Positions 7,956 through 44,928 of a stretch of 64,000 nt of DNA are shown in pieces (the stretch's first letter is position 1; the number at the start of each line of letters is the position of its first letter). The translations under genes were made by a program, and so were the position numbers. Origin of the DNA: Pseudomonas sp. R4-35-07 (GTDB lineage: Bacteria > Pseudomonadota > Gammaproteobacteria > Pseudomonadales > Pseudomonadaceae); assembly GCF_003852235.1 (NCBI RefSeq), contig NZ_CP027732.1:4278001-4342000 (forward strand). Reading direction: 5' to 3'. The notes beneath the pieces are model-generated. The model did no database searches. It was not told where the DNA came from and was given only the letters and a program-made list of their open reading frames with translations.

Positions 7956-7979
7956 AAAGGCCCCATTTATGGGGCCTTT
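7956..7979 (-). terminator. Terminator left of attL (native tRNA-Ser terminator copy)
   Basis: Hairpin GGCCCC-ATTTAT-GGGGCC with A-run on its left, so a T-run on the minus strand. Before the island came in it would have terminated the tRNA-Ser gene; the tRNA is now 37 kb away with a second terminator. Confidence 0.8.
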
Positions 7980-7986
7980 AGATATC

Positions 7987-8004
7987 AATATGGCGGTGAA
8001 GGAG
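7987..8004. repeat. attL: 18-bp direct repeat of tRNA-Ser 3' end
   Basis: AATATGGCGGTGAAGGAG occurs here and at 44835-44852, where it forms the 3' end of tRNA-Ser(GGA) plus a few downstream bases. The similarity extends leftward through the terminator hairpins to CCAAAATCCGA (about 7917 here, about 44753 on the right). This is the island's left junction. Confidence 0.9.
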
Positions 8005-8167: not shown

Positions 8168-9427
8168 ATGGGAAAGCTGACCGCTAAGCAAATTGAAAAT
8201 CTGACTACCCCAGGCACCTACGAGGACGGAGATGGTCTACGCCTCCTGATCAAGCCCAATGGGAAGAAGTATTGGGTACTGCGCTTTCAGCTCTCCGGAA
8301 AGCGGAGGGAGATGGGGCTAGGCACCTATCCCGCAATCGGTCTTAAGGAAGCTCGGCAAAACAGTAGTGATAAGCGCCGCTTACTGCGCGATGGTATTGA
8401 CCCCTTACAGGCTCGTGACGATGAACGAGCGGCACAGGTGACCGCTGAGCTGCAACGTAAAAACAAAGCCATCACGTTCCGGGACGTGTCAGCCGATTAC
8501 GTAGAGGCTCATCGTGCTGGCTGGAAAAACGTCAAACACGCTCAGCAATGGACGAACACACTGGCTACTTACGCCGCGCCCGTCATCGGCGAACTCGCCA
8601 CCAACCAGATCACCACCGAGCACATCCTCGATATTCTAAAGCCCATCTGGGGCAGCAAAGCCGAAACAGCAAGCCGGGTTCGTAACAGGATCGAACTAGT
8701 CCTCGATGCCGCCAAAGCACGTGGACTGCGAGACGGTGAAAACCCAGCACGCTGGCGTGGACACCTAGACAAGCTGTTACCACCGAGCTCCAAGGCTAAA
8801 CGTACCCAAAACCACCCGGCATTGCCTTACTCGGAGTTGGCTCGTTTCATACCGGCACTTGATAGTGTCGAAGGACAATCCGCCTACGCACTCAAAATGA
8901 CGATCCTCACTGCCTGCCGAACCAGCGAGGTTCTTGAAGCCGACTGGAGTGAGGTTGATTTGAAAGCCAAGCTATGGACGATTCCAGCGGTGCGAATGAA
9001 AGCGGGGAAAATTCATACCGTGCCGTTATCTGATGCGCTTATCGCACTGCTCGAAGATCTCCCACGAATCAAAGGTAGCTCGTTGCTGTTTCCAGGGGCT
9101 CGTAAAGGTCGCCCCATTAGCAATATGGCCATGTTAATGACTTTGCGTCGCATGGACCAAAAGGACCTGGATGATGGTGGCAAGGGCTGGCGCAATAGCA
9201 ATGACAAAGTCATTACTGCTCATGGGTTTCGCAGCACATTCAGGGACTGGGCTGCTGAATGTACACCCCATGCACGCGAAGTCTGCGAGATGGCTTTGGC
9301 TCACGTTGTCGCCAGCGGTGCTGAGGCGGCCTATTGGCGAAGTGACTTATTGGAAAAACGCCGTGTATTGATGGCTGATTGGGCCGACTTTGTGACACGC
9401 AATGTAAATGGGTCTGCCATTCTTTAG
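8168..9427 (+). CDS. P4-type tyrosine integrase
   Basis: 419 residues, the usual length. DUF4102-type N-terminal domain (KLTAKQIENL, GLRLLIKPNGKKYW, MGLGTYPAIGLKEAR), core-binding domain (~100-190) and catalytic domain with the complete set: Arg251 (TACRTSEV), His352-x-x-Arg355 (HGFRST), His379 and Tyr389 (AAYWRSD). AGGA sits 8 bp before the ATG. It should recombine the 18-bp att site in tRNA-Ser(GGA), integrating or excising the island. All key residues are present, so it looks active. Confidence 0.97.
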   Translation: MGKLTAKQIENLTTPGTYEDGDGLRLLIKPNGKKYWVLRFQLSGKRREMGLGTYPAIGLKEARQNSSDKRRLLRDGIDPLQARDDERAAQVTAELQRKNKAITFRDVSADYVEAHRAGWKNVKHAQQWTNTLATYAAPVIGELATNQITTEHILDILKPIWGSKAETASRVRNRIELVLDAAKARGLRDGENPARWRGHLDKLLPPSSKAKRTQNHPALPYSELARFIPALDSVEGQSAYALKMTILTACRTSEVLEADWSEVDLKAKLWTIPAVRMKAGKIHTVPLSDALIALLEDLPRIKGSSLLFPGARKGRPISNMAMLMTLRRMDQKDLDDGGKGWRNSNDKVITAHGFRSTFRDWAAECTPHAREVCEMALAHVVASGAEAAYWRSDLLEKRRVLMADWADFVTRNVNGSAIL

Positions 9428-9932: not shown

Positions 9933-10679
9933 CTAAAAATCATGCTTTTCATCAAATAGCTTGCTCATAAAGCTTTCAGGGCTAGCAAAGTAACTTTTCA
10001 TAATTAGGTAGTTTTCAGTTTCTGAATATTCCTTCTCTTCCAATCCACTATTGGTAAACTCCCAAATTCTGGCGCCCGGGTAAGCAATTAAAATTGGTGA
10101 GTGAGTTGCAATTATGAACTGCGAATTTTGTTTTGCGAGTTCCGCTATACGTACCAGCAGAGATAATTGGCGTTGGGGAGATAGCGCAGATTCAGGCTCG
10201 TCTAGTAAATACAATCCGTTTCCTCCGAACCGATGTAAAATCAGATCCATAAAAGCCTCCCCATGAGACCTCGTATGAAGATCGTTCCCCCCGTATGAGT
10301 CCTTAATAGCTGGCCCGCCAGGTCCGCAATCCAACTTATTCATCTCTGTAATTACATTATAAAAACTTTCTGCGCGATAAAAATAGCCATCTCGAGGTCG
10401 CTTTGCGGTGCGTGACAAGCGCAATGCCTTGGACAGTAGGGATTTTTCATCGCTGGAAGAAAACTTGAAATTCTTACTGCCTCCCTCATGATTAAAGCCA
10501 CATGAAACTGCAATAGCCTCTAAGAGGGTTGACTTACCGCTACCGTTTTCTCCAACGAAAAAATTTATCACGGGGTGAAGCTCGATTTTGCTAATTGATT
10601 GAATTGAAGGCAAATAGAAGGGGAAATTATTCTCTTCTCTATAGTTCTCTAAGATTTCAATTCTCTTAATGTAAGGCAT
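9933..10679 (-). CDS. Stand-alone AAA family ATPase (ABC/SMC-like)
   Basis: 248 residues. Walker A GENGSGKS at 43-50 (Lys49), signature-like SHGEAFMDLIL near 138-148, Walker B LYLLDEPESALS (Asp160, Glu161) and an H-loop ATHSP with His193. The region between Walker A and the signature is short, so there is no long coiled coil. Small ATPases of this shape occur alone or beside effectors in defence islands, but no partner nuclease is adjacent here. AT-richer than the neighbouring genes. Biochemical role: ATP binding and hydrolysis; physiological role unknown. Confidence 0.9.
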   Translation of the reverse strand: MPYIKRIEILENYREENNFPFYLPSIQSISKIELHPVINFFVGENGSGKSTLLEAIAVSCGFNHEGGSKNFKFSSSDEKSLLSKALRLSRTAKRPRDGYFYRAESFYNVITEMNKLDCGPGGPAIKDSYGGNDLHTRSHGEAFMDLILHRFGGNGLYLLDEPESALSPQRQLSLLVRIAELAKQNSQFIIATHSPILIAYPGARIWEFTNSGLEEKEYSETENYLIMKSYFASPESFMSKLFDEKHDF

Positions 10680-16954: not shown

Positions 16955-19564
16955 TTAGACCTCAATTGGTTTAACGCGAAACTTATTGACGTTATCAGCC
17001 AACCTTTGAATAGACTCAATATCATTTTTTATTTCGTCCAAGTTAGCCACAGGCATCTCCTTGTTAGGGGCTTGGAAATGCGCCTCAGTGATTCGATGAC
17101 CTTTCTTCCAGAGCGCAACGATGTCATCAGCGTCCTGCTTTCGTAGACCAGTGATTTTATGAAGATTCCCTACACCAACCATATCACTAAACCGCGTCAC
17201 AATACCATTTAACACTACATCTTCGACAACTCGCTCAACAGTGGAGCGAATATCGCTGTATAACAGTCGAACATCTCTAACTAAATCCTCACCAGGATAA
17301 ATAGGCCAAGGCTCCATTTTTTTCGCTCGATCCCCCAGCTGCTTTACCCGTTCTTTATAACCAGTTTTATCCCAAGGTAGTCCTTGTTTGACTACTCCAG
17401 CTGCTTCGCCGACCCATTCTAAGTAATGGACAAGATGGGGAATTTGCTTTTCCTCATTAAGAGTATCGATAAGTTCGCTTAGGAAAGAGATGTCATGGGT
17501 CAAGACTATAACTTGGCGGTTAGCCGCTTCCTCCACGAGACGTTTTGCCACGAGGCGTCGCCTTACATGATCTAACGAGGAAACAGGGTCATCAAATATG
17601 ATCCCCCCTCGATGCTCTGATAGTTTAAGCTCAGCCAAGAATGCACCTAGTGATACAGCACGCTGCTCACCCTCACTCAGTACGTGCTCAATTTTCTTTG
17701 CCGCTGGAAGATCTAACAGCAGAGTAAACTTTACAGTCCCACGATCGACTCGTTCTTTTAGCTTCGTCTTAATGTGCCCAATGCCGAGCTTTGTAAACTC
17801 TTCATCAAGTGCTTTTCGTAACGAGTCGGTGATAATTTTCCCTGCAATTTCCTTAGACTTCGCAGACAAAACCCTAGGATTCAAATCGGCCTTACAGGTT
17901 TCGAGTTTAGCTCGATAAATTACCCTATCGTGCAGCGCTAAGATTGCTTCTGTTAGAGGCACAAGCAGCCGCCTAGCTTTAAGCTCAACCAGTTCTTCAG
18001 ATAGCTTCTTTAACTTTTCTGGATCTGAAGCTCTTTTATATACTCGCCCTTTCCAAATTTTACTGGCAGCAAATTGCCTCAATTCAGCCACTGGACTTTT
18101 AGCCAGCTTTGGAACCACTTCCCATTCTAAGGATTTTGCGGCCTCAAGCATCCATACTTTGTATGCATCTAGCTGTTTCTGATACAACTCTAAATTTCCT
18201 ACTAGATTCGCTGACGCACCCTCCAACTCTACAGCCAATGCTTGATTAAGCCCAAAGTCAAAACTTGAACGATCTATCTGATCTAAAATTTTTTCTAATG
18301 CAGCTTTTTTTTCAGATGCTACCTTGGTGGCATTTTCGCTAATGAAATTATTGAAGCGCTGCATTCTACCGATTACAGACTTAGCCGGTTGTTGGCAGAG
18401 TACACATGCAGCTCCCTCACCTTCGCTTGGAAAGTCATGCCCAACATAAGCAACTTCAATTGAATATTTTTTCGCAGCTAGGAACAACTCTTTCCAAATG
18501 GTCTCCCCCGTACCGGGCAACAGCTCATCCTCAGCCCTAAGCAGTAGTGCAGCCGCGTCAACTCCCGCCTTGGCATCGGCTGACTCCTTGGCGAAACGCT
18601 GCAATTTTTCCAATGCTTTTTGAGTAGTGAATTTCTCTTTTTCCTTGATTGTTTTCGCCAAACTTTTGATATGGGATGCAGAAGTTTTCAGGCTTTGAAA
18701 CTTGAGTATCGGGTCTGGCTCAGCAATTGCTAGTTCCAGCTCACCAAGCCGCTCAACCTCCTCCGACGACAGTGTTCCCAATCGAGATATTTCATCTCGG
18801 TTGGTGTCCTCGCCAAATCCCTGAAAAAGCTTGCCCACAGCACTTTTTTTATCGAAGCCTGAAAGAATATCAAGTGACACTTCGACACTATTGAGTTCTT
18901 CGTTCAAGAGCGCTAGCACTTCTGGTACAACTTTACCCGCGAGAGCTTCCACAACATCTAAGCCGCGAGGTAGATAAGCCGCATCGCCTTCGAGGAGGTA
19001 GGCGTTGGCGCAAAATGAGTCAAAGACGCTGACGTAGGACAGCTCGGGAGGTGCTACTGAGCCACTGGTCCAATGGAAACTCTTTACGTCCCCATTCAGG
19101 CACGCCGTAAACGTCGCCCTAGGCTTTCCACCTGGTACTCCAGCCTTGGTCACATCGCCAAGAATATCCCCTCCCCTATCACGCGCTCGACAAGCATGCT
19201 TCAGAACTCGCGCATACCCTGACTTTCCTGCGCCATTGCCTCCATAAATCACCGTGACTCCCTTCTCCGAGAATGGGAGCGTTTGTCCCGGCATGATTCT
19301 GTTGACGTTTTGCAAATTGCTCATCGAATGAAGCGTAACGCTGAATGCGGCTTCGCCGCCTGCGGGAATATGGTCAGCGCTCAAAGGCACCGCTTTTAGC
19401 CCTCCAGGGATTTCAATGCCTTTATCATGCTTCAGTAATGCATACAGGTCCCTGAAGTCCTGCAAATCCAATTGCTGGTTTAGCAAGAGTCGACGCGCGG
19501 CGTCTCTCAGCCACAGTGATAGATCCTTCTCAGACCAGAGCAATACATCATTGAGTATCGACAT
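16955..19564 (-). CDS. RloC-like AAA ATPase with zinc-hook motif (candidate anticodon nuclease)
   Basis: The start at 19564 (MSILNDVLLWSEKDL) is preferred, with GGAAGTG five bases upstream; a longer frame goes to 19645. 869 residues. Walker A GGNGAGKS at 108-115, long helical segments, a CVLC motif at 387-390 as in zinc-hook coiled coils, and Walker B IIFDDPVSSLDH near 654-665, the AAA_13 arrangement. In the C-terminal domain, Arg773-x3-Glu777 (RSTVE) is spaced like the Arg-Glu pair of PrrC/RloC tRNA nucleases, with His802, His823 and His829 as possible third residues. The nuclease assignment is inference; the ATPase call is firm. Confidence 0.8.
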   Translation of the reverse strand: MSILNDVLLWSEKDLSLWLRDAARRLLLNQQLDLQDFRDLYALLKHDKGIEIPGGLKAVPLSADHIPAGGEAAFSVTLHSMSNLQNVNRIMPGQTLPFSEKGVTVIYGGNGAGKSGYARVLKHACRARDRGGDILGDVTKAGVPGGKPRATFTACLNGDVKSFHWTSGSVAPPELSYVSVFDSFCANAYLLEGDAAYLPRGLDVVEALAGKVVPEVLALLNEELNSVEVSLDILSGFDKKSAVGKLFQGFGEDTNRDEISRLGTLSSEEVERLGELELAIAEPDPILKFQSLKTSASHIKSLAKTIKEKEKFTTQKALEKLQRFAKESADAKAGVDAAALLLRAEDELLPGTGETIWKELFLAAKKYSIEVAYVGHDFPSEGEGAACVLCQQPAKSVIGRMQRFNNFISENATKVASEKKAALEKILDQIDRSSFDFGLNQALAVELEGASANLVGNLELYQKQLDAYKVWMLEAAKSLEWEVVPKLAKSPVAELRQFAASKIWKGRVYKRASDPEKLKKLSEELVELKARRLLVPLTEAILALHDRVIYRAKLETCKADLNPRVLSAKSKEIAGKIITDSLRKALDEEFTKLGIGHIKTKLKERVDRGTVKFTLLLDLPAAKKIEHVLSEGEQRAVSLGAFLAELKLSEHRGGIIFDDPVSSLDHVRRRLVAKRLVEEAANRQVIVLTHDISFLSELIDTLNEEKQIPHLVHYLEWVGEAAGVVKQGLPWDKTGYKERVKQLGDRAKKMEPWPIYPGEDLVRDVRLLYSDIRSTVERVVEDVVLNGIVTRFSDMVGVGNLHKITGLRKQDADDIVALWKKGHRITEAHFQAPNKEMPVANLDEIKNDIESIQRLADNVNKFRVKPIEV

Positions 19565-19708
19565 TTTCACTTCCATGGACGGATAAGCAAGGAGGCAGCT
19601 AGGTAGCAAATAGATACTAGCGGAATTTAGCCTCTGCACCGTCATTTTGAAAAATTGCTATGACACCCTGAATGTAGCCTCTCATGCGTAGATATTTGAG
19701 ATTCTCCG

Positions 19709-26645: not shown

Positions 26646-28799
26646 TTACGGCATGCAACACTTTTTGTATTTTTTACCGCTTCGGCAGGAGCAAGGGTCG
26701 TTGCGTCCCACTTTCTGGCCATGGCTTTGGCGAATGAGGGACGACAACGATGATATTGGTGCTGGGGCCTGGGCATCCCTAGTCAGCTCGTTCATCTGCT
26801 CAGATTCGGTCCATGTGGAATTAAGACTCACGCCGAACTGAATGTCGCAATCTCCACCGACGGCCAAGCCGAACCACGTATCTGATCGCAGGATGTACTT
26901 ACGCTTGTGGCAATGGAACTGCAGCCGGCGCAAGGCTGCCGCCGAGGGGACTACATTAGAGTGGAAGCAAATGCCGGCCCTTCCTTGCTCGGCTCCGATT
27001 GTAAAATCGTGCCCCTGCCCATCCTTTCGCGTCATGCGAGTTATGGCCTCAAGGCCCCGATGGATATTAAAAGCGGCGTCCTCATTCATGGCCAGAAGCT
27101 GAAATCCGAGTTCGAGCGTTGCTGGATTGGCCTCAGCTTCAATCTGGGAAATCACCTGCTCATACCTCGTACCAGCTAATCTGGTCAGTATGCCTTCGGG
27201 AGTGCGCTGGCCCGGATGCCCCTCCCGCCGGACAGTCATGGCGGTGTCGAGATCGATCGAATATGAGTCATCAATCATCACGTGATTGATTTCGTCATCG
27301 AGCCACATATTTCGTTTCAAGTGAAACCCCAAAGCCGTCAGCTCGTGACTGAGATTCAGCTTACCCACCGCGGCGATTCGAAGGCGGATGTAGCTAAGGA
27401 ACCTAAGCGGTGACGTGAGCATCTCAGCGAGGGCGTCCAAGAGGAAGACATCCATCACGAAAGGCGCTTTAACAACCTCGGTCGTCTGATACGACAGGTA
27501 TTGGCTGGATTGGAATGCCAATGCCGGGTAGTGCTCGGAAACGATGTTGAAGAGGTAAATTTCTTTCACGGGATGAGGTAGCTTTACTTCCCTGCCTTGG
27601 TCGTCCTCCAGCCGATACCCACCCTCAACAATAATGCTCGCACACTCCCATCCTTGCTCGTACGACTGCTGAATTGCCGCGGCGAAGTCTGACTTGAGTT
27701 GACCATCATTGCCTTTCCGGGCCTCAAGGGTCAGTTTTTTTGACTTCGCCTGAACAATGATCAACCGATCGCCGAAAACGACCAGCACGTCGGCCTCACC
27801 AGCAATGTCCTTGCCTTTAAACAAATTTACGTTGGTATGGACATTGCCTTCACCAAAGACTGCGGCAAGCCGCCGAGCTGCGAACTGCTCCGCAAATGCG
27901 CCGCGATTTGCCATGGCTTTCGGTCGGTACGGCTTGTCGGCCCACATCCAGAAAAATGGCGATTCGTAGAGAGCCTCGTAGATGGCGTAATGCTGGAAGA
28001 GCAACACCGTACCGCGACCGGTCAGCAGTAGCGGCGTGGCCGCGACGGCATTGAAATCGCCAATGGTCTGAAATTGCAGATTGTCACCAGTCAGCGTCAA
28101 AGCGCGGAATACGGCCTCGACAATGGCTACATCCAGTCCGCTTAAATCCGAGACAAGCTTCGCCGAATACTCAAATGCTGCGAGCAACATGTGAGGCTCA
28201 ACCTCTGGCGTATTGGAGCCGGTGAAGGCGGCGCATGACCTCTCGTCCATAAGGGCGCACATGGCGTGTGCAACCACCTGTGCCTGGCCGATGGAAAAGC
28301 CCATTTTCTCAACGAGCCAGTGGTCATCTTCACCGTACTTCGCGGGAAGAAAATCACGGTACTGGAAACTGTAGGCGGACTCGGTCCCATAAAAAATCGG
28401 CTCTCGCATGGACATGCCGTCCCAGGCTGCTCCCGTGTTGCTCCCGCTCATGGCCTGATCTTTCAGGGCTGACATCATCGGTCGGGAAAGAGCTTGGTGT
28501 AGCTCCAACATGAGTGTATCGGTGCGGGCTACCAATTCGCCCAAGACCTCTACAGTGGGCACGCTCATGTCCAGATCCTGACGAACCATCAACCCGAGCA
28601 GAGTTGTGATTTCAGTCCTTAATAAGCGGTCATTGCTAAAAAGCGGAGCAATGTCATCCGGATTCAACTCGTCGTTGTACATGACTAGGTTGTCCCGATG
28701 ACATATGAAAGCAATACCATGGACATAGCCTGGAGAGGCTGTCAGCTCAACAAGATCAGCAAGAACCTCAGTTTCGGATCGACCTATTAGTGTCGGCAT
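26646..28799 (-). CDS. Nuclease-like protein with C-terminal SEC-C zinc motif
   Basis: The ATG at 28799 is chosen: GGGAGGAACGCCGC precedes it. 717 residues. Near the middle, GEADVLVVFGDRLIIVQAKS gives Asp337 and Gln350-Ala-Lys352, the D...(Q/E)xK pattern of PD-(D/E)xK/NERD-type nucleases. The last residues, VGRNDPCSCRSGKKYKKCC, are a SEC-C zinc motif. The rest (residues 1-300 and 400-690) is helical and unassigned. SEC-C proteins with nuclease-like parts occur in defence islands. Predicted DNA or RNA nuclease; target unknown. Confidence 0.75.
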   Translation of the reverse strand: MPTLIGRSETEVLADLVELTASPGYVHGIAFICHRDNLVMYNDELNPDDIAPLFSNDRLLRTEITTLLGLMVRQDLDMSVPTVEVLGELVARTDTLMLELHQALSRPMMSALKDQAMSGSNTGAAWDGMSMREPIFYGTESAYSFQYRDFLPAKYGEDDHWLVEKMGFSIGQAQVVAHAMCALMDERSCAAFTGSNTPEVEPHMLLAAFEYSAKLVSDLSGLDVAIVEAVFRALTLTGDNLQFQTIGDFNAVAATPLLLTGRGTVLLFQHYAIYEALYESPFFWMWADKPYRPKAMANRGAFAEQFAARRLAAVFGEGNVHTNVNLFKGKDIAGEADVLVVFGDRLIIVQAKSKKLTLEARKGNDGQLKSDFAAAIQQSYEQGWECASIIVEGGYRLEDDQGREVKLPHPVKEIYLFNIVSEHYPALAFQSSQYLSYQTTEVVKAPFVMDVFLLDALAEMLTSPLRFLSYIRLRIAAVGKLNLSHELTALGFHLKRNMWLDDEINHVMIDDSYSIDLDTAMTVRREGHPGQRTPEGILTRLAGTRYEQVISQIEAEANPATLELGFQLLAMNEDAAFNIHRGLEAITRMTRKDGQGHDFTIGAEQGRAGICFHSNVVPSAAALRRLQFHCHKRKYILRSDTWFGLAVGGDCDIQFGVSLNSTWTESEQMNELTRDAQAPAPISSLSSLIRQSHGQKVGRNDPCSCRSGKKYKKCCMP

Positions 28800-28913
28800 G
28801 CGGCGTTCCTCCCAGAGATACATCAGTCAAAGATGCGCAAGTATCTTGGACTACTGTGAATCTAGCGTAGGTGCCAAGAATGAAGAGGACGGATTTATTT
28901 TCTCCACTCCAAA

Positions 28914-29470: not shown

Positions 29471-32400
29471 ATGACTGAGAACATCAAGAGCACGGCAATC
29501 ACCTCTGCCGGCTACATCTATCAGAACCGGCAGGGGCTGCGGGTGTTGTGCGACTGGCTGGATGCGCCGAGTCGCTACGCGAAGGTCAAGTTCGAGTGTG
29601 ACGTTGAGGCGGAAGCACCAAAGGGTTTGGACGACATCGTGGTCGAGCGCTCGGACGGACTGCAAGACCTTAAGCAGGTCAAGTTCACGCCAAACCCTGA
29701 TGCACATCCGCTGTCCTGGGATTGGCTGCTTGAGAAATCCGGCAAGACGGAGCGGTCCCGGTCAATGCTGAAGAAGTGGTTTGACGCGTACAGGTCGCTG
29801 GACCTAGCACGTATCGGTGATCTCTCCCTGTTGACCAACCGGCGGCCTGATGCTGAGATCGAAGCCTGCCTGGCCGGTAGCAAGATTGATTTCGCCAAGG
29901 TCCCTGACCCGAGGCGCGCGGCGCTCATCGCCGAACTCGGCGGCGAGGCGGATTGTGAGGACTTTCTCGGTCGACTACAGATCACGCACAGCGACAAGGG
30001 CTACGAGACGCTCGAGCACGAGGTTGACGCGCGGCTGCGTGCGCATGGCACGCCGGAGGGCATCGCCGTCCTCAAAAACGTCGCTCTGAACTGGGCGACG
30101 CAGAAGTACTCTCCACCGCCGTCCGGCTGGATCACGTTGCCAGACCTTCGCGCGATCCTGCAGGCGACACCGCCGGCACCTCTCCCGGAAGACTTTGCGG
30201 TCCCCAAGGGCTATGAGGTGCCCGATGCAGAATTCCACGGCGCTTTCGTCAAGGATGCTCTGCGGTCAGGCGGCAAGGCGATCGTTCTGACCGGTCCGCC
30301 TGGTCGCGGCAAGAGCACCTACCTCAGCGCGCTGTGCGACATATTCGCCGACAAAGACATTCCGACGGTCCGCCACCACTACTTCCTGTCCACGACGGAG
30401 CGCGGTCGGGATCGCTTACACAGCTACGTCGTCGAAGAGTCGATCCAATCGCAGATCGAGCGATTCCATCCCGACGTCCTCCGCCCGCCCGGTGGCCTGC
30501 GCGCGCAGTTGGACGCCACTGCGGCGCACTACAAAGCGCTCGACAAGCCCTTCGTACTGATTTTGGATGGTCTCGACCACGTCTGGCGCACCAACGGGGA
30601 GGACAAACAGCCGCTAGAGGACTTGTTTGCCCAGTTGGTGCCGTGTGCTGAGAACTTGGTACTGCTCGTGGGTACACAGCCGGTGGACGACGCACAACTT
30701 CCGGCAGACTTGTTGATCGCTGCGCCGAAGGCAAGTTGGAAGACGCTGCCCGCCATGTCCGGCGACGCCGTCCTTTCGTACTTGCGTCAGGCGGTGCACG
30801 CCGGTCGGTTGAGCACGGGGTTTGGGCCTGCGGAGCCTAATGAGAAGGACGTTCACGCAGAGCCTGAGGCGGCTGAAACGACCGAGGTTGCCGCAGCGCA
30901 CGAGGCTGTTGCTGAGGAAGAGTTGCAGAGCGCCGCGGCCGCGCTCCGCGCCAGGACCAACGGTCACCCACTGCACGTCATCTACGCGACCTCTGCACTT
31001 GTGCTTGCCGGTGGCAAGGTCACGCGATGGGACGTCGAGCAACTCACCGGAGATCTGAGTCAGGGCGTGAAGTTCTACTACGGGTCGCTGTGGGAGCGGG
31101 TTTCACCCAGCCTAAAGGATGCGCTGCGACTGGTTTGCGCCTTCCCGTTCTTCTGGCCACGGACTGCATTCGGCGAGATCGCGACCGCGATGAGGCTGGC
31201 GGCACCCGAGATCGAAAAGGTGGAACATCTGCTTCATTCGTCGGCCGCCGGTTTGAAGGTCTTCCACGAGAGCCTGGCGGTGTACGTGCGGTCGACCGAT
31301 GGCTACGCCGATCGCATCGCTGCACTGAGGCCGGAGGTTGCGCGCTGGCTGGAGACGTTGGCTCCCAACGCTTTGCGGGTGAACTGGCTCTGGACGGTCC
31401 AGGCGCAGCTTGGCGATCCAAGCCATCTGATCGCGGGCTTGACCCGAGACTGGGTGCTGCTGCGACTGGAAGAGGGCTATCCGCAGTCGCTGTTTGACAC
31501 ATTGATCACCGACGCCGTGGCTGCCGCGCTGGACCGGGCTGAGTTCGCACAAGCCTATCGCCTCCAGCACTTGAAGGCCCGCATGGTTGAGGGCAGCCAG
31601 TACCAAATGCAGGACGAGGACATGGCCCAGCTGGTTTCTTACACATGGACGCTGGCGTCGGACGATTGGGTTATCCGAGAGGCCGTTGCCTCCAGGCACG
31701 AGACGGATATCAAACTTGTGGCGGCGCTGGGGCTAGCGCTGCGAGCGCGCGGAGACCATATCGTGGCCGAGACCTGTGGCGAGGAGACGCTGCGACGCTT
31801 CCGGGGCGCGAGTCGCTTCTCGAGAGAGTACTCCACGGGCAACGGCTTGGATGCTTTCAGGTTCCTGGCGGGTGCTTTTGCGCGCCTAGGCGCGGTAGGG
31901 GTCACGCCGGAGGGGCTCAAGCAGTTCGTGACACGTGCTAACCCAGAGGGCTGGTTACCGCGCGTACGGCTGATGGCCGCGGAGGGGCAACTGGACGAGT
32001 TGATGTCGCTTGCAGCGTCGCTCGGCGATAGCCGGCGTAAGTGCGTTGTCAGCGATGCCTGCCTCCGGGCCGCGGCTCAGGTCAATGTAAGCATCGTCGA
32101 ACGCGGTGACTTCAAAGCACTCGCCAGAACGCCCTTTGTAGCAGCCATCGAGGCGGCCCACGTGCATGCCGTGACGACCTTAAACGCTTCAATCCCGATC
32201 GACTGGCAGGGACTCAACTACCGTGAGCGCAAGCAGGACCTTGCGAAGCTGGTGCACCACTGGTTCTTCAGCGCTGTGCACTTGAGCATGTGCATGTCCG
32301 CGGAAGGGCAGACCGAGTTCAGCTTTGCACGCGCACCGGTATATGCCGACCGAGAGAATGTCACTGACTTCCTGAACGTGCTCTCGGGCGTCGCCGGCCA

Positions 32401-33964
32401 AGTGGCTCATCACTGGTGGCGGGGGGATTTCGTAGACTTTCACGCGGTCTTTGAGCTATTAGACCCGGTGGAGTTTAGGCATTTCCGACAGAGCTACGAC
32501 TGGCAATCTGCAGCAGAGGATTTTCGGGCTGCCCTGCACCAGGTTGCCTGCGACGTCCGTCTGGGCAGCATTCTGTTGGGCCATGCCGTCGAGGCTAATC
32601 TCACCGAGGCGACGCTCGCTGCCGCAGAGTCGTTCAAGTGGTTCGACGCGGCGTCTTTCCGCGAGCAGTACGCCGGAGGGCTGCTGACGAAGATGTCTGA
32701 TGAGGCCGCTGCGAAATTCGTGCTCTCCCAGCGCGAGCAGTTCGATGCTGAGGTGCGGCAGGAGACCAGCGTGCATCTGCAAACGCCGCTGCAGTTGTGC
32801 GGAATTTCGGTGGCCCATGGTTTGGAAACAACGGCGCGCGAACTTTGCCGACAGACCTGGGAGCTTGCGACAGGCTTCTCGCATCGTAAAGATCCGACGC
32901 TGAACAAGACCCTCGACGCGATCGGTTTCTTGGTCGAAGCTGCGCCGAAAAATGCACGTCGACTGTTAGCGCAGGTCGCCTCTCAAGTCCACTCCGTGCT
33001 GGACTACACGGACGGCAGTGGCACCCGACACGCGCTGACTGCGGCGGACGCGCTGCTGGCCAAGCTGGCTCCCGCCGCATTGGTGGCCAAGTACGAGGAG
33101 CATGTCGACGCCGGGCAGTGGTCTCAGGCTGAGAACAGCCTGAGTGTGTACGTCGAGCAGGGAGTGAAGGCCGGCTGGCCGCTTGATGCGCTAATGCGCA
33201 CGGGCCTGCCCCCGGAAGTTAGGGATGTGCTGCAGCGTCTAGTCAAGGAAGGAGTCGAGGGTGCCGCCGAGCGACTGGGGTTACTCAACGCTCACGGAGG
33301 GTGGGACATCGGCGTGCTGAGTCGCGAGGAGCACGCGAACTCAAACACGGATCGAAAGCCCTTCGATGGTGACGTCTCAACCTTCGAGCCCGAGCAGCTA
33401 ATGGCCTTGCTCGATCGCTTATCGGGTGGCGGCTACGACGACGAGGCGGCGCTTCTGGCTTGGTATCAGTACTGGGAAGGCCAGGGACAGGGGAAGCGGA
33501 TTCTCCATGCACTGGATGACTCGCTTTTGTCCGACCGAGGTCGAGGCCGTGATCTGCTCCACCTGTCTGGCCATGCCTTTCACACCCGACGTAGGCAGAG
33601 CGGTCTGAAGGCTGCTTGGAAGTACCTCGTCAGCGCGCAGATCTACAGCGGCGCCTGGATCGGCTATATGGAGCGCGAAGAGAAGACGCTCGCGCGGCTC
33701 GACCTCGTGGCCCAGTACTACCTGAAATATTGCGATGACTTCGTAACCAAGACAGCCTATGCCATGTTCGGCGAACCGGAGCGGCCGCGATTGGCGCCGG
33801 GTGAGGCAATGGTCTATTTCTACGTGAAGCAGGGACGCATAGATGCGGCGGTTGAGTTCGCTCAGGTTATGGTCGACTGTGTGCTTGAAGACACCCGAAC
33901 CCTCCCGCTAGCTAACCCGCGTTGGGGAACAGAACTGGTTGCTGCGGACGCGCGGGAGGAGTGA
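29471..33964 (+). CDS. Cap4-type nuclease / STAND NTPase fusion (Avs-like antiviral protein)
   Basis: The ATG at 29471 is chosen (AAGGA upstream, and the protein starts directly at its first domain); an ATG at 29432 is also open. 1,497 residues. Residues 1-~200: ITSAGYIYQNRQGLRVL, then LDDIVVERSDG (Asp54, Asp55) and LKQVKF (Gln69-x-Lys71), a PD-(D/E)xK nuclease of the Cap4/DUF4297 type. Residues ~265-600: NTPase with Walker A GPPGRGKST (275-283) and Walker B FVLILDGLDHVW (361-372). The rest is a long helical repeat-like sensor region. Architecture as in Avs proteins, which detect phage proteins and then cut DNA. Target unknown. GC-rich compared with its neighbours. Confidence 0.82.
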   Translation: MTENIKSTAITSAGYIYQNRQGLRVLCDWLDAPSRYAKVKFECDVEAEAPKGLDDIVVERSDGLQDLKQVKFTPNPDAHPLSWDWLLEKSGKTERSRSMLKKWFDAYRSLDLARIGDLSLLTNRRPDAEIEACLAGSKIDFAKVPDPRRAALIAELGGEADCEDFLGRLQITHSDKGYETLEHEVDARLRAHGTPEGIAVLKNVALNWATQKYSPPPSGWITLPDLRAILQATPPAPLPEDFAVPKGYEVPDAEFHGAFVKDALRSGGKAIVLTGPPGRGKSTYLSALCDIFADKDIPTVRHHYFLSTTERGRDRLHSYVVEESIQSQIERFHPDVLRPPGGLRAQLDATAAHYKALDKPFVLILDGLDHVWRTNGEDKQPLEDLFAQLVPCAENLVLLVGTQPVDDAQLPADLLIAAPKASWKTLPAMSGDAVLSYLRQAVHAGRLSTGFGPAEPNEKDVHAEPEAAETTEVAAAHEAVAEEELQSAAAALRARTNGHPLHVIYATSALVLAGGKVTRWDVEQLTGDLSQGVKFYYGSLWERVSPSLKDALRLVCAFPFFWPRTAFGEIATAMRLAAPEIEKVEHLLHSSAAGLKVFHESLAVYVRSTDGYADRIAALRPEVARWLETLAPNALRVNWLWTVQAQLGDPSHLIAGLTRDWVLLRLEEGYPQSLFDTLITDAVAAALDRAEFAQAYRLQHLKARMVEGSQYQMQDEDMAQLVSYTWTLASDDWVIREAVASRHETDIKLVAALGLALRARGDHIVAETCGEETLRRFRGASRFSREYSTGNGLDAFRFLAGAFARLGAVGVTPEGLKQFVTRANPEGWLPRVRLMAAEGQLDELMSLAASLGDSRRKCVVSDACLRAAAQVNVSIVERGDFKALARTPFVAAIEAAHVHAVTTLNASIPIDWQGLNYRERKQDLAKLVHHWFFSAVHLSMCMSAEGQTEFSFARAPVYADRENVTDFLNVLSGVAGQVAHHWWRGDFVDFHAVFELLDPVEFRHFRQSYDWQSAAEDFRAALHQVACDVRLGSILLGHAVEANLTEATLAAAESFKWFDAASFREQYAGGLLTKMSDEAAAKFVLSQREQFDAEVRQETSVHLQTPLQLCGISVAHGLETTARELCRQTWELATGFSHRKDPTLNKTLDAIGFLVEAAPKNARRLLAQVASQVHSVLDYTDGSGTRHALTAADALLAKLAPAALVAKYEEHVDAGQWSQAENSLSVYVEQGVKAGWPLDALMRTGLPPEVRDVLQRLVKEGVEGAAERLGLLNAHGGWDIGVLSREEHANSNTDRKPFDGDVSTFEPEQLMALLDRLSGGGYDDEAALLAWYQYWEGQGQGKRILHALDDSLLSDRGRGRDLLHLSGHAFHTRRRQSGLKAAWKYLVSAQIYSGAWIGYMEREEKTLARLDLVAQYYLKYCDDFVTKTAYAMFGEPERPRLAPGEAMVYFYVKQGRIDAAVEFAQVMVDCVLEDTRTLPLANPRWGTELVAADAREE

Positions 33965-35406
33965 TGGACGAGCTTCGAATTCTCATCTCTCGCCTAGGAT
34001 GGCCGACGCCATCCTGCCGATGGTGGACATTGCAGGAGTTGGCAAAACTGTTGAGCGACCCTGCGACGACGACAGAGACCGAGTCAGCGCTGCTGAAGCT
34101 GCTGCATTCGCGCAAGCTCGAGGCGGAAGTCGTCGAGGCACTCTGCATCTTCTGGATGGCTGCAAGTGAGTACGGCTACGTTCCCAATCCCGATTTGCCG
34201 AACCGCACGCCGAAACCGTCACTCCTATCCAACCTGCTCCTCGAGGCTCTCGGCTTCGAGGAGCAGGCGCTAGATACCGACCTCAAAGCGGCGCCAAAGC
34301 ACTTCGAGATTCCCAGTGACTTCGAAGGTGTGCAGGGGGTGGACCTGGCCAGGATGTTCCGGACCACGCTGAGCAGGCTGGAGCTTCGAACAAAACTCCC
34401 GCTTATTCGCCAGATGGCGTTCGAGTGGACTGAAAACCAGGCGGCCTATCCCGAGGCTTCCCTGCAGGGCGACTTCGGGCACTTTGCGCGGCCGCTGGGG
34501 AAAGGCTTCGTAGGCACATACTCCGCCCGGGCCGCCCTTCGTGCGATCTCCGCCTACTTGCGCACCTTGGCGGTAGCGGAACGGTTGTGGGGGCTGCCCT
34601 CTGGGGTTGTGCGCCATTACGCACTAAAGGCGCTGCCAATTCATCCTACGCTGGCTGCGCTGAGGCCTTCACGCCCGGCATGGGTGCCGGTCCGGGAGGA
34701 CTTCAACGGGAGCGCGAACGCGATCGAGGGAATCATGCGAGAAGTCGTCCTTCGCGTCGCGGCCGAGCGCCCCGGCGATGAGCTGATCGCGCTCAGCACT
34801 CCCGTCGAGATGACGATGGGACGCTGCGTGGAAGTATCGCTTGTGCGATGGCTGCAGTTCGGCAACAGTGAAGTGGCTGACCAGGATCTTGCTTCACATA
34901 TTGACTCCTTCTGGCGCGACATGCCAATGCTGCCAAGCGTGCCCACAGCGCCGCTCGACGAGATGACTTGGTTGGGGGCAATACCTATCGATCAGTTACT
35001 GGACGTCCCGTCTGCATCGTTGCCTTTGGCCGGACGGATGGACTATGGCCGCATGGGATACCTGCAGCTGAACCTCTATCCATCTCGACTGTTCGTGCCG
35101 ACGCTCCTAAGGACTGCTCAAGCAGAGGTACGTCGAGTGGGCACCACGCTTGAGGTCCTTGTCGATGAACAGGTAGTGGCGGACTACGCTCATTGGAATA
35201 CGGGCTGGGGGCCAGTGCGTCCGGGGTCGCTGAATGGAGCCTGCGGTGCGGCCTTAGTTTCTCGCGGAACGAGCTACCGCGAGTTACCGGCCGCCGAAGG
35301 GCAGGTGGTTCGATCGTTCTATCTCTGGCAAGTGCGCCTGCTTCACCGGAGCAACTCGTACAACGCGTTCGACGAGACCCTAAAGAGTGGCGTCTTCTTC
35401 CTTTAG
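33964..35406 (+). CDS. Unrecognised partner of the STAND NTPase
   Basis: The ATG at 33964 overlaps the stop of the NTPase gene by one base (TGATG) and follows GGAGGAG, so the two are translationally coupled. 480 residues. N-terminal part is helical (LQELAKLLSD, ALLKLLHSRKLEAEVVEAL), the C-terminal part strand-rich with Gly/Trp (YAHWNTGWGPVRPGSLNGAC). No signal peptide, no membrane segment and no catalytic motif I can name. As Avs systems are usually single genes, a tightly coupled partner suggests a cofactor, inhibitor or target adaptor. Confidence 0.85.
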   Translation: MDELRILISRLGWPTPSCRWWTLQELAKLLSDPATTTETESALLKLLHSRKLEAEVVEALCIFWMAASEYGYVPNPDLPNRTPKPSLLSNLLLEALGFEEQALDTDLKAAPKHFEIPSDFEGVQGVDLARMFRTTLSRLELRTKLPLIRQMAFEWTENQAAYPEASLQGDFGHFARPLGKGFVGTYSARAALRAISAYLRTLAVAERLWGLPSGVVRHYALKALPIHPTLAALRPSRPAWVPVREDFNGSANAIEGIMREVVLRVAAERPGDELIALSTPVEMTMGRCVEVSLVRWLQFGNSEVADQDLASHIDSFWRDMPMLPSVPTAPLDEMTWLGAIPIDQLLDVPSASLPLAGRMDYGRMGYLQLNLYPSRLFVPTLLRTAQAEVRRVGTTLEVLVDEQVVADYAHWNTGWGPVRPGSLNGACGAALVSRGTSYRELPAAEGQVVRSFYLWQVRLLHRSNSYNAFDETLKSGVFFL

Positions 35407-44800: not shown

Positions 44801-44826
44801 AAAAAAGCCCCGCTAAACGGGGCCTT
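44801..44826 (-). terminator. Terminator of tRNA-Ser (island-supplied)
   Basis: GCCCCG-CTAAA-CGGGGC with an A-run on the left, hence T-run on the minus strand just after the tRNA 3' end. It differs in loop from the copy at 7956, so it came with the island. Confidence 0.85.
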
Positions 44827-44834
44827 CAGGTATA

Positions 44835-44852
44835 AATATGGCGGTGAAGGAG
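44835..44852. repeat. attR: 18-bp direct repeat within tRNA-Ser 3' end
   Basis: AATATGGCGGTGAAGGAG, identical to attL at 7987-8004. It completes the acceptor stem and CCA of the tRNA so the gene stays functional after integration. Confidence 0.9.
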
Positions 44853-44928
44853 AGATTCGAACTCTCGATACAATTTCTTGTATACACACTTTCCAGGCGT
44901 GCTCCTTAAGCCACTCGGACACTTCACC
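44839..44928 (-). tRNA. tRNA-Ser (anticodon GGA)
   Basis: On the minus strand it begins GGTGAAGTGTCCGAGTGG and ends TCTCCTTCACCGCCA with an encoded CCA. The anticodon loop reads CTGGAAA (GGA), a long variable arm follows (GTGTGTATACAAGAAATTGTA region) and the T arm has GTTCGAATC. The acceptor stem GGTGAAG pairs with CTTCACC. Ninety bases, as expected for a class II Ser tRNA. Its 3' end is the island's integration site. Confidence 0.97.

Follow-up and report, generated by a model that had tools for sequence, protein, structure and literature searches.

When a gene for a large nuclease/NTPase protein is followed by a smaller gene starting inside its stop codon, does the smaller gene encode a partner of the large protein or a part of it? 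This question is raised by two overlapping genes (gene 1 and gene 2) on a genomic island of Pseudomonas sp. R4-35-07, within a stretch of 64,000 nucleotides (contig NZ_CP027732.1, positions 4,278,001 to 4,342,000) which we call the window. An earlier note on this DNA had taken the pair for a STAND-type defence candidate, with the second gene as an added sensor adaptor, regulator or second effector. From sequence comparisons we judge, at a probability of about 0.75, that gene 1 and gene 2 code for the two chains of a single bipartite bacterial NLR-like (NACHT/STAND) immune receptor, whose C-terminal subunit is a separate, translationally coupled chain.

The product of gene 1, 1,497 residues in length, is predicted to carry a central NACHT domain with intact Walker motifs and an N-terminal nuclease-like effector region, which agrees with the nuclease/STAND protein of about 1,500 residues described in the earlier note. 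Pfam NACHT (PF05729) was matched with 38.8 bits against a cut-off of 26.7. In the N-terminal region, residues 4-188 are similar to PADLOC LmuA (E 1.3e-8) and residues 37-129 to a CBASS endonuclease model (E 2.9e-8), and the Pfam Cap4 nuclease model stayed below threshold (E 0.26). Cap4_nuclease was found above its cut-off in P0249, a member of the wider family (28.6 versus 26.2 bits), and is annotated in a precomputed column for 21 of the best 120 of 126 matches to the C-terminal tail of a distant single-chain relative. Asp54, Asp55, Gln69 and Lys71 of the nuclease region, G275-S282 of Walker A and D366/D369 of Walker B, including the nuclease and Walker residues that the note had named, were invariant in all 30 aligned relatives. 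The same alignment has invariant F598, H599, E600 and S601 in the winged-helix region, which we take to be a STAND motif. The C-terminal arm continues for about 880-900 residues after the NTPase region, and the last ~480 residues of the chain in this family correspond to gene 2.

Profile searches of both proteins with hidden Markov models, named in the earlier note as a check, gave the NACHT, LmuA and CBASS endonuclease matches in gene 1 and zero matches for the gene 2 product in Pfam, PADLOC and NCBIfam at E up to 1 and in PHROGs at 0.1. In protein searches, the ~8,000 candidates sharing the most words with each query were scored, and the best 120 of 287, of 295 (query gene 1) and of 126 matches (query tail of the distant single chain L025) were listed. 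Among the gene 1 relatives listed (best of the 295 matches), 21 of 119 were 1,951-1,972 residues long, and the gene 2 product is colinear with the C-terminus of all 21 over 478-480 residues, at 52-81% identity (78% in the alignment with the long relative P0143). Distant single chains at loci L013, L025, L027 and L029 also carry a gene 2-like region as their own C-terminus. With the tail of L025 (1,941 residues) as the only query, 111 of the best 120 of 126 matches were at least 1,880 residues long, and the remaining nine were colinear N-truncated pieces starting 131-576 residues into the reference, one of them also C-terminally short. A different effector on the tail was seen neither in these nine nor among the 120 listed, in a search whose reach was limited to proteins of about 1,070-3,400 residues and so did not extend to stand-alone tails. 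Since gene 2 is colinear with the C-terminus of long relatives and no different effector was found, we conclude from these alignments that its product is the receptor's own detached tail, i.e. its last ~480 residues, and not the added component supposed in the earlier note. Public records frequently name gene 2 relatives "multidrug DMT transporter permease", for which we found nothing in support.

The pair is conserved beyond this genome, a point which the earlier note had left to a genome survey. In a plasmid collection of 72,556 records, 23 matched gene 1 and 16 matched gene 2. A gene 2 match was present in all 15 records covering at least 74% of gene 1, and in 14 of them it was directly downstream on the same strand, either as a gene of its own or as part of a single long gene; in plasmid CP052288, the pieces of gene 1 and gene 2 are apart (rearranged). 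The 16th gene 2-matching record (Piscirickettsia) matched just 17% of gene 1, and its locus L037, a 643-residue open reading frame amid transposases with no NTPase beside it, was read as a remnant. In Moraxella (L038), a 732-residue ATP-binding gene is directly followed by a transposase gene, and the record has no gene 2 match. Relatives of gene 2 were detected in 4 of 95 relatives' genomes, 7 of 398 from the genus, 3 of 398 from the phylum, 4 of 369 from the class and 5 of 398 from the family of G673; these sets overlap, some matches are fragments, and all counts but the last include the genome of the window itself. A DNA search of E. coli gave a partial match in 11 of 5,426 genomes, one of which was read as L022. 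A search of 50,697 phage records gave no copy, and none of 335 pattern matches in viral contigs was confirmed. Several copies in Pseudomonas are broken (G254), remnants (G162, G318 and G233) or interrupted (L001). Identities of both proteins to the window pair covary over nine loci (Spearman 0.98), a descriptive value because these loci share one reference and a history. Both genes are under purifying selection, as indicated by ratios of nonsynonymous to synonymous substitution (dN/dS) of 0.12-0.15 for gene 1 and 0.19-0.26 for gene 2 in two comparisons, with dS near 1 in that with L030, and of less than 0.27 for all segments.

As the earlier note had read, gene 2 starts inside the stop codon of gene 1, at a TGATG preceded by GGAGG. 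Pairing with the anti-Shine-Dalgarno (anti-SD) sequence before this start was as good or better in a fraction of 0.006 of the 944 window ATGs. The junctions of 18 split loci were read in DNA: TGATG is present in 14 (window, L001, L008, L014, L019, L002, L020, L003, L009, L010, L011, L039, L040 and L041) and ATGA in three (L022 of E. coli and the distant L026 and L028), and one (L042) is unsettled; these loci are partly non-independent, L001 being nearly identical to the window and L039, L040 and L010 being alike at the junction. The 17 settled loci all have gene 2 in the -1 frame and an overlap of stop and start, and the overlap persists in relatives down to about 27-30% identity. In eight of 11 loci, no more than 6.2% of the ATGs in the same stretch have anti-SD pairing as good. 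Judged from these junctions, termination-reinitiation is the likelier mode of gene 2 translation.

How the split and single-chain forms are related was examined on two trees. In the tree of 119 rows (98 short and 21 long), at least seven changes between the forms are required, and the well-supported branches alone force seven; short proteins stop close to the point where long ones run on. The second tree, enlarged to 170 rows by 14 loci and by 37 of the 111 full-length proteins of distant relatives, gave at least ten changes by parsimony, and a split ancestor also gives ten; it omits the nine of 120 tail-search matches shorter than 1,880 residues and two in three of the other 111, and extra rows cannot reduce the count on a given tree. 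P0149 (1,259 residues) was left out of both trees. With L029 as root and a single-chain ancestor, the tree has two splits, one at the base of a 127-row clade containing the window and one in L026/L028. Of the eight re-fusions on it, two fall in clades of 11 rows (support 99) and 4 rows (support 96) and six are confined to one row each; four changes remain if all six single-row cases are assembly errors. Since the distant rows came from a search blind to stand-alone tails, the ancestor may have been of either form. At the junction, the 21 long chains have Leu-Met (9), Met-Met (2), Met after another residue (5) or no Met (5), and the protein letters suggest that Leu-Met and Met-Met are the expected product of TGATG read through in frame. 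The receptor appears to have been repeatedly cut and rejoined at one boundary, and such repetition at one place points to a likely module border in the C-terminal arm. We regard it as rather unlikely, on the other hand, that the junction works as a frame switch, in which a change of one or two bases before the kept TGATG toggles between one and two chains and lineages switch back and forth because covalent and non-covalent arms differ in activation threshold or because the free arm is exchanged between co-resident receptors. If this were true, the receptor would be an NLR-type one split by nature, whose sensing subunit can be tuned or shared.

Other explanations of the pair have to be weighed against the bipartite receptor. 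The proposal of the earlier note, that gene 2 is an added component beside a receptor able to act alone, draws on the facts that gene 2 is distinct, with its own start and ribosome-binding-like sequence, that it evolves somewhat faster than gene 1, and that a part of gene 1 occurs without gene 2 in seven of the 23 plasmid records. Nevertheless, an independent partner is largely refuted by the colinear C-terminus in 21 of the 21 long relatives among the 119 listed, as well as in distant single chains; besides, in none of these was the gene 2 region found attached to another NTPase or effector, the one match that lacks an NTPase beside it being the Piscirickettsia remnant, and the proposal is accordingly very improbable. 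That the split is decay or a sequencing artefact, one gene having been frameshifted in this genome, might be suspected because the forms differ by reading frame at the junction and broken or remnant copies are common in Pseudomonas. This pseudogene reading was rejected as extremely unlikely, since 98 of 119 tree rows are short (by length), the overlap recurs in 17 of 18 loci read and both halves are under purifying selection.

The constant -1 frame of gene 2 would also suit programmed -1 frameshifting, by which the two genes would be joined into a single chain of ~1,970 residues, and one junction, that of Klebsiella plasmid L011, has a slippery heptamer, GGGAAAA, 9 nt before the second start and in phase by eye; some frameshifted product is possible there. 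However, no X_XXY_YYZ heptamer was found within 60 nt in 10 of the 11 junctions, the window included, and anti-SD pairing stands out in eight of the 11, so that frameshifting is very doubtful for the pair and was rejected as a general rule, with L011 as the one exception. A further alternative concerns the target: the pair may act on plasmids or other mobile DNA, or serve its carrier element, instead of acting on phages. This would accord with its location on islands and plasmids and with the lack of a copy in the phage records and viral contigs searched, but where nuclease-NACHT and Avs proteins have been put to the test, they act on phages (PMC12169576, PMC12931631), and we hold it to be unlikely.

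In the bipartite receptor, gene 1 would supply a Cap4-like PD-(D/E)xK nuclease effector, a NACHT NTPase switch and about 900 residues of C-terminal arm, and gene 2 would supply the last ~480 arm residues as a separate subunit through termination-reinitiation at the TGATG. Joined non-covalently, the two chains would most likely form a counterpart of the single-chain receptor of ~1,970 residues that relatives have. Detection of a phage component by the C-terminal arm, of which gene 2 is probably a sensing part, would lead to oligomerisation of the NTPase and switch the nuclease on, and the activated nuclease would degrade DNA and cause abortive infection.

Several observations weigh against this view. 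Sequence and profile searches of PDB matched no STAND structure. The 98 split rows of the first tree were so classed by length, and an adjacent partner was seen in fetched loci only, while the close single-gene forms are known as protein sequences alone: such a form was not found in DNA in the 95 relatives' genomes or in those of the genus (398), phylum (398), class (369) and family (398). Six of the eight re-fusions rest on one row each. The L025 tail search shows that the single-chain form is widespread in distant relatives and does not address how frequent split forms are among them. In seven of the 23 plasmid records, 7-48% of gene 1 is matched and gene 2 has no match, and the anti-SD pairing is unremarkable in three of 11 loci (L010, L011 and L022, with 14-19% of ATGs as good). 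In the nearest named genome, Pseudomonas kitaguniensis MAFF 212408 (L001, 3470-8001), gene 1 is interrupted at about residues 733-750 with the partner intact, owing either to an error or to decay.

The plan of the receptor itself is known. According to one paper (PMC12169576), bNACHT proteins have an N-terminal effector, a central NACHT switch and C-terminal sensing. Those of clade 6 (bNACHT25 and bNACHT32) have an N-terminal PD-(D/E)xK nuclease, a central NACHT and a C-terminal sensing region, and the window pair resembles them in its nuclease-like region, its NACHT and a C-terminal arm that would do the sensing; they are described there as one protein, whereas the window pair puts the end of the arm in a second coupled gene. 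Validated NACHT and PD-(D/E)xK systems are also reported in the DefensePredictor paper (PMC13092281). The window pair may overlap with a published bNACHT clade or a DefensePredictor system. What appears to be new is that a NACHT nuclease receptor is divided in two at a constant position. A literature search found no paper on this split receptor, but most subscription journals were outside its coverage, and the receptor may have been published.

Among curated STAND models, Avs1b (AVAST type 1) matched best, though just in the NTPase core and the part that follows it. PADLOC Avs1b matched the window protein (E 7e-4), all 30 close members (best 8e-14) and six of 24 wider members; NCBIfam Avs1b matched 18 of the 24 wider members (P0249 with 24.8 bits versus a cut-off of 1,500) and was absent from the matches of the gene 1 product at E 1. 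NCBI names Avs1b a protease, unlike the nuclease-like effector region found here, and PADLOC scans of 12 window proteins gave neither Avs1a nor Avs1c. Avs1 membership was rejected, the curated cut-off not being reached and no Avs1a or Avs1c being found. Avs2-Avs5 membership was also rejected: no such model matched the window pair at E up to 1 in PADLOC and NCBIfam, or, at 0.01, the 30 and 24 relatives in PADLOC and the 24 in NCBIfam. Avs2 and Avs5 were seen by name in NCBIfam, and models of Avs3 and Avs4 are presumably present in those libraries. The NCBIfam Avs2 and Avs5 models gave nothing in the window's own genome, where the Avs5 result carries no weight because no control genome matched, and none of the Avs chains in PDB matched the gene 1 family. 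In Avs3 and other Cap4-type Avs proteins, a Cap4-type nuclease is joined to a STAND NTPase, as in gene 1. A cap4 domain of Avs3 is mentioned in one study (PMC11291478), and according to another (PMC12931631) the nuclease-type members Avs1-Avs4 recognise a phage protein, be it terminase, portal or another.

The LmuA effector of Lamassu and the Cap4 effector of CBASS have a nuclease-like region homologous to that of gene 1, but the match is confined to this region and no LmuB-like gene adjoins the pair, an LmuB-matching protein of the PDC-S06 type lying about 10 kb away. CBASS Cap4 membership was rejected, with no SAVED Pfam match in the gene 1 product and no cyclase among the 10 island proteins scanned. 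DUF4297-HerA is a two-component nuclease and ATPase defence with similar motif spacing (D40/Q53/K55 versus D54-55/Q69/K71 here; PMC11291478); its nuclease and ATPase are separate chains, while in the window pair both are in the first chain and the split falls in the C-terminal arm. The suggestion of the earlier note that this is an undescribed variant remains plausible in that no PADLOC or NCBIfam model matched the partner and none covers the whole NTPase.

The island (Table 1) has a tyrosine integrase and imperfect end repeats at a tRNA-Ser gene, and these, together with a candidate defence gene, were counted as context in favour of the bipartite receptor. The candidate (window 16958-19645, - strand) encodes an 896-residue protein of the PADLOC candidate defence family PDC-S06 (567 bits), with a weak match to LmuB (E 4.5e-9). 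The earlier note was right that the pair is richer in G+C (GC) than the rest of the island (0.619 for gene 1 and 0.608 for gene 2; 0.509 and 0.525 for the rest); its argument for separate acquisition is weak, because the GC of the pair is ordinary for the host flanks (0.588 and 0.603 for the chromosomal DNA of the window beyond the island).

Table 1. Positions of the receptor genes, their motifs and the island ends, counted from the first letter of the window.
Feature	Position	Strand	Basis
Left copy of the island's imperfect 44-bp end repeat	7961..8004	.	
Island tyrosine integrase	8168..9427	+	Pfam integrase domains
Gene 1, 1,497 aa: Cap4-like nuclease region / NACHT (STAND) NTPase / long C-terminal arm (predicted)	29471..33964	+	ATG 29471, TGA ending 33964
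Nuclease-like N-terminal region, residues 1-190	29471..30040	+	PADLOC LmuA match and invariant residues
D54/D55; Q69-x-K71	29630-29635; 29675-29683	+	invariant in 30/30 aligned
NACHT NTPase domain, residues 271-443	30281..30799	+	Pfam PF05729, E 1.1e-9
Walker A, residues 275-282; Walker B, residues 361-369	30293-30316; 30551-30577	+	invariant residues
FHES, residues 598-601, winged-helix-region motif	31262..31273	+	invariant (30-sequence alignment)
GGAGG, ribosome-binding-site-like, for gene 2, inside gene 1	33955..33959	+	anti-SD duplex -10.3 kcal/mol
TGATG stop/start overlap, one shared base	33962..33966	+	
Gene 2, 480 aa, predicted detached C-terminal region of the receptor	33964..35406	+	ATG 33964; colinearity with long relatives
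Right copy of the 44-bp end repeat, at 3' end of tRNA-Ser (44839-44928, -)	44809..44852	.	

Some neighbouring genes were also recorded. A NERD/SEC-C protein (window 26649-28823, - strand) adjoins the pair. Since a homologue is also close to the pair in P. kitaguniensis L001 and on a plasmid of Azonexus (L008, 14559-16859), this gene may be a recurrent neighbour. At the integrase end of the island, a 248-residue AbiEii/AriA-like AAA ATPase is encoded in a stretch of 41% GC (window 9936-10679, - strand). In Halomonas (L003, 84-3587) and E. coli (L022, 945-4727), a homologous gene for 1,167-1,260 residues stands directly before the NTPase gene, with an 8-nt overlap or a 4-nt gap. Its product has no Pfam match, and that of L022 has a C-terminal VTVECK stretch, PD-(D/E)xK nuclease-like by eye; a three-gene form is possible at these two loci. 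Beside the receptor, Cupriavidus plasmid L010 (10242-14930) has three consecutive tyrosine recombinase genes, and Serratia plasmid L013 (1-3556) has a tyrosine recombinase and two hypothetical genes; these recombinases are possible mobilising neighbours.

If the two genes are one receptor as proposed, an apparently orphan "partner gene", often recorded under a transporter name, becomes a defined piece of a large receptor family, and searches that treat gene 1 and gene 2 as separate families would miss the system. The natural pairs of split and single-chain forms would provide material for testing how a signal passes from the sensing arm to the nuclease in bacterial NLR-like receptors.

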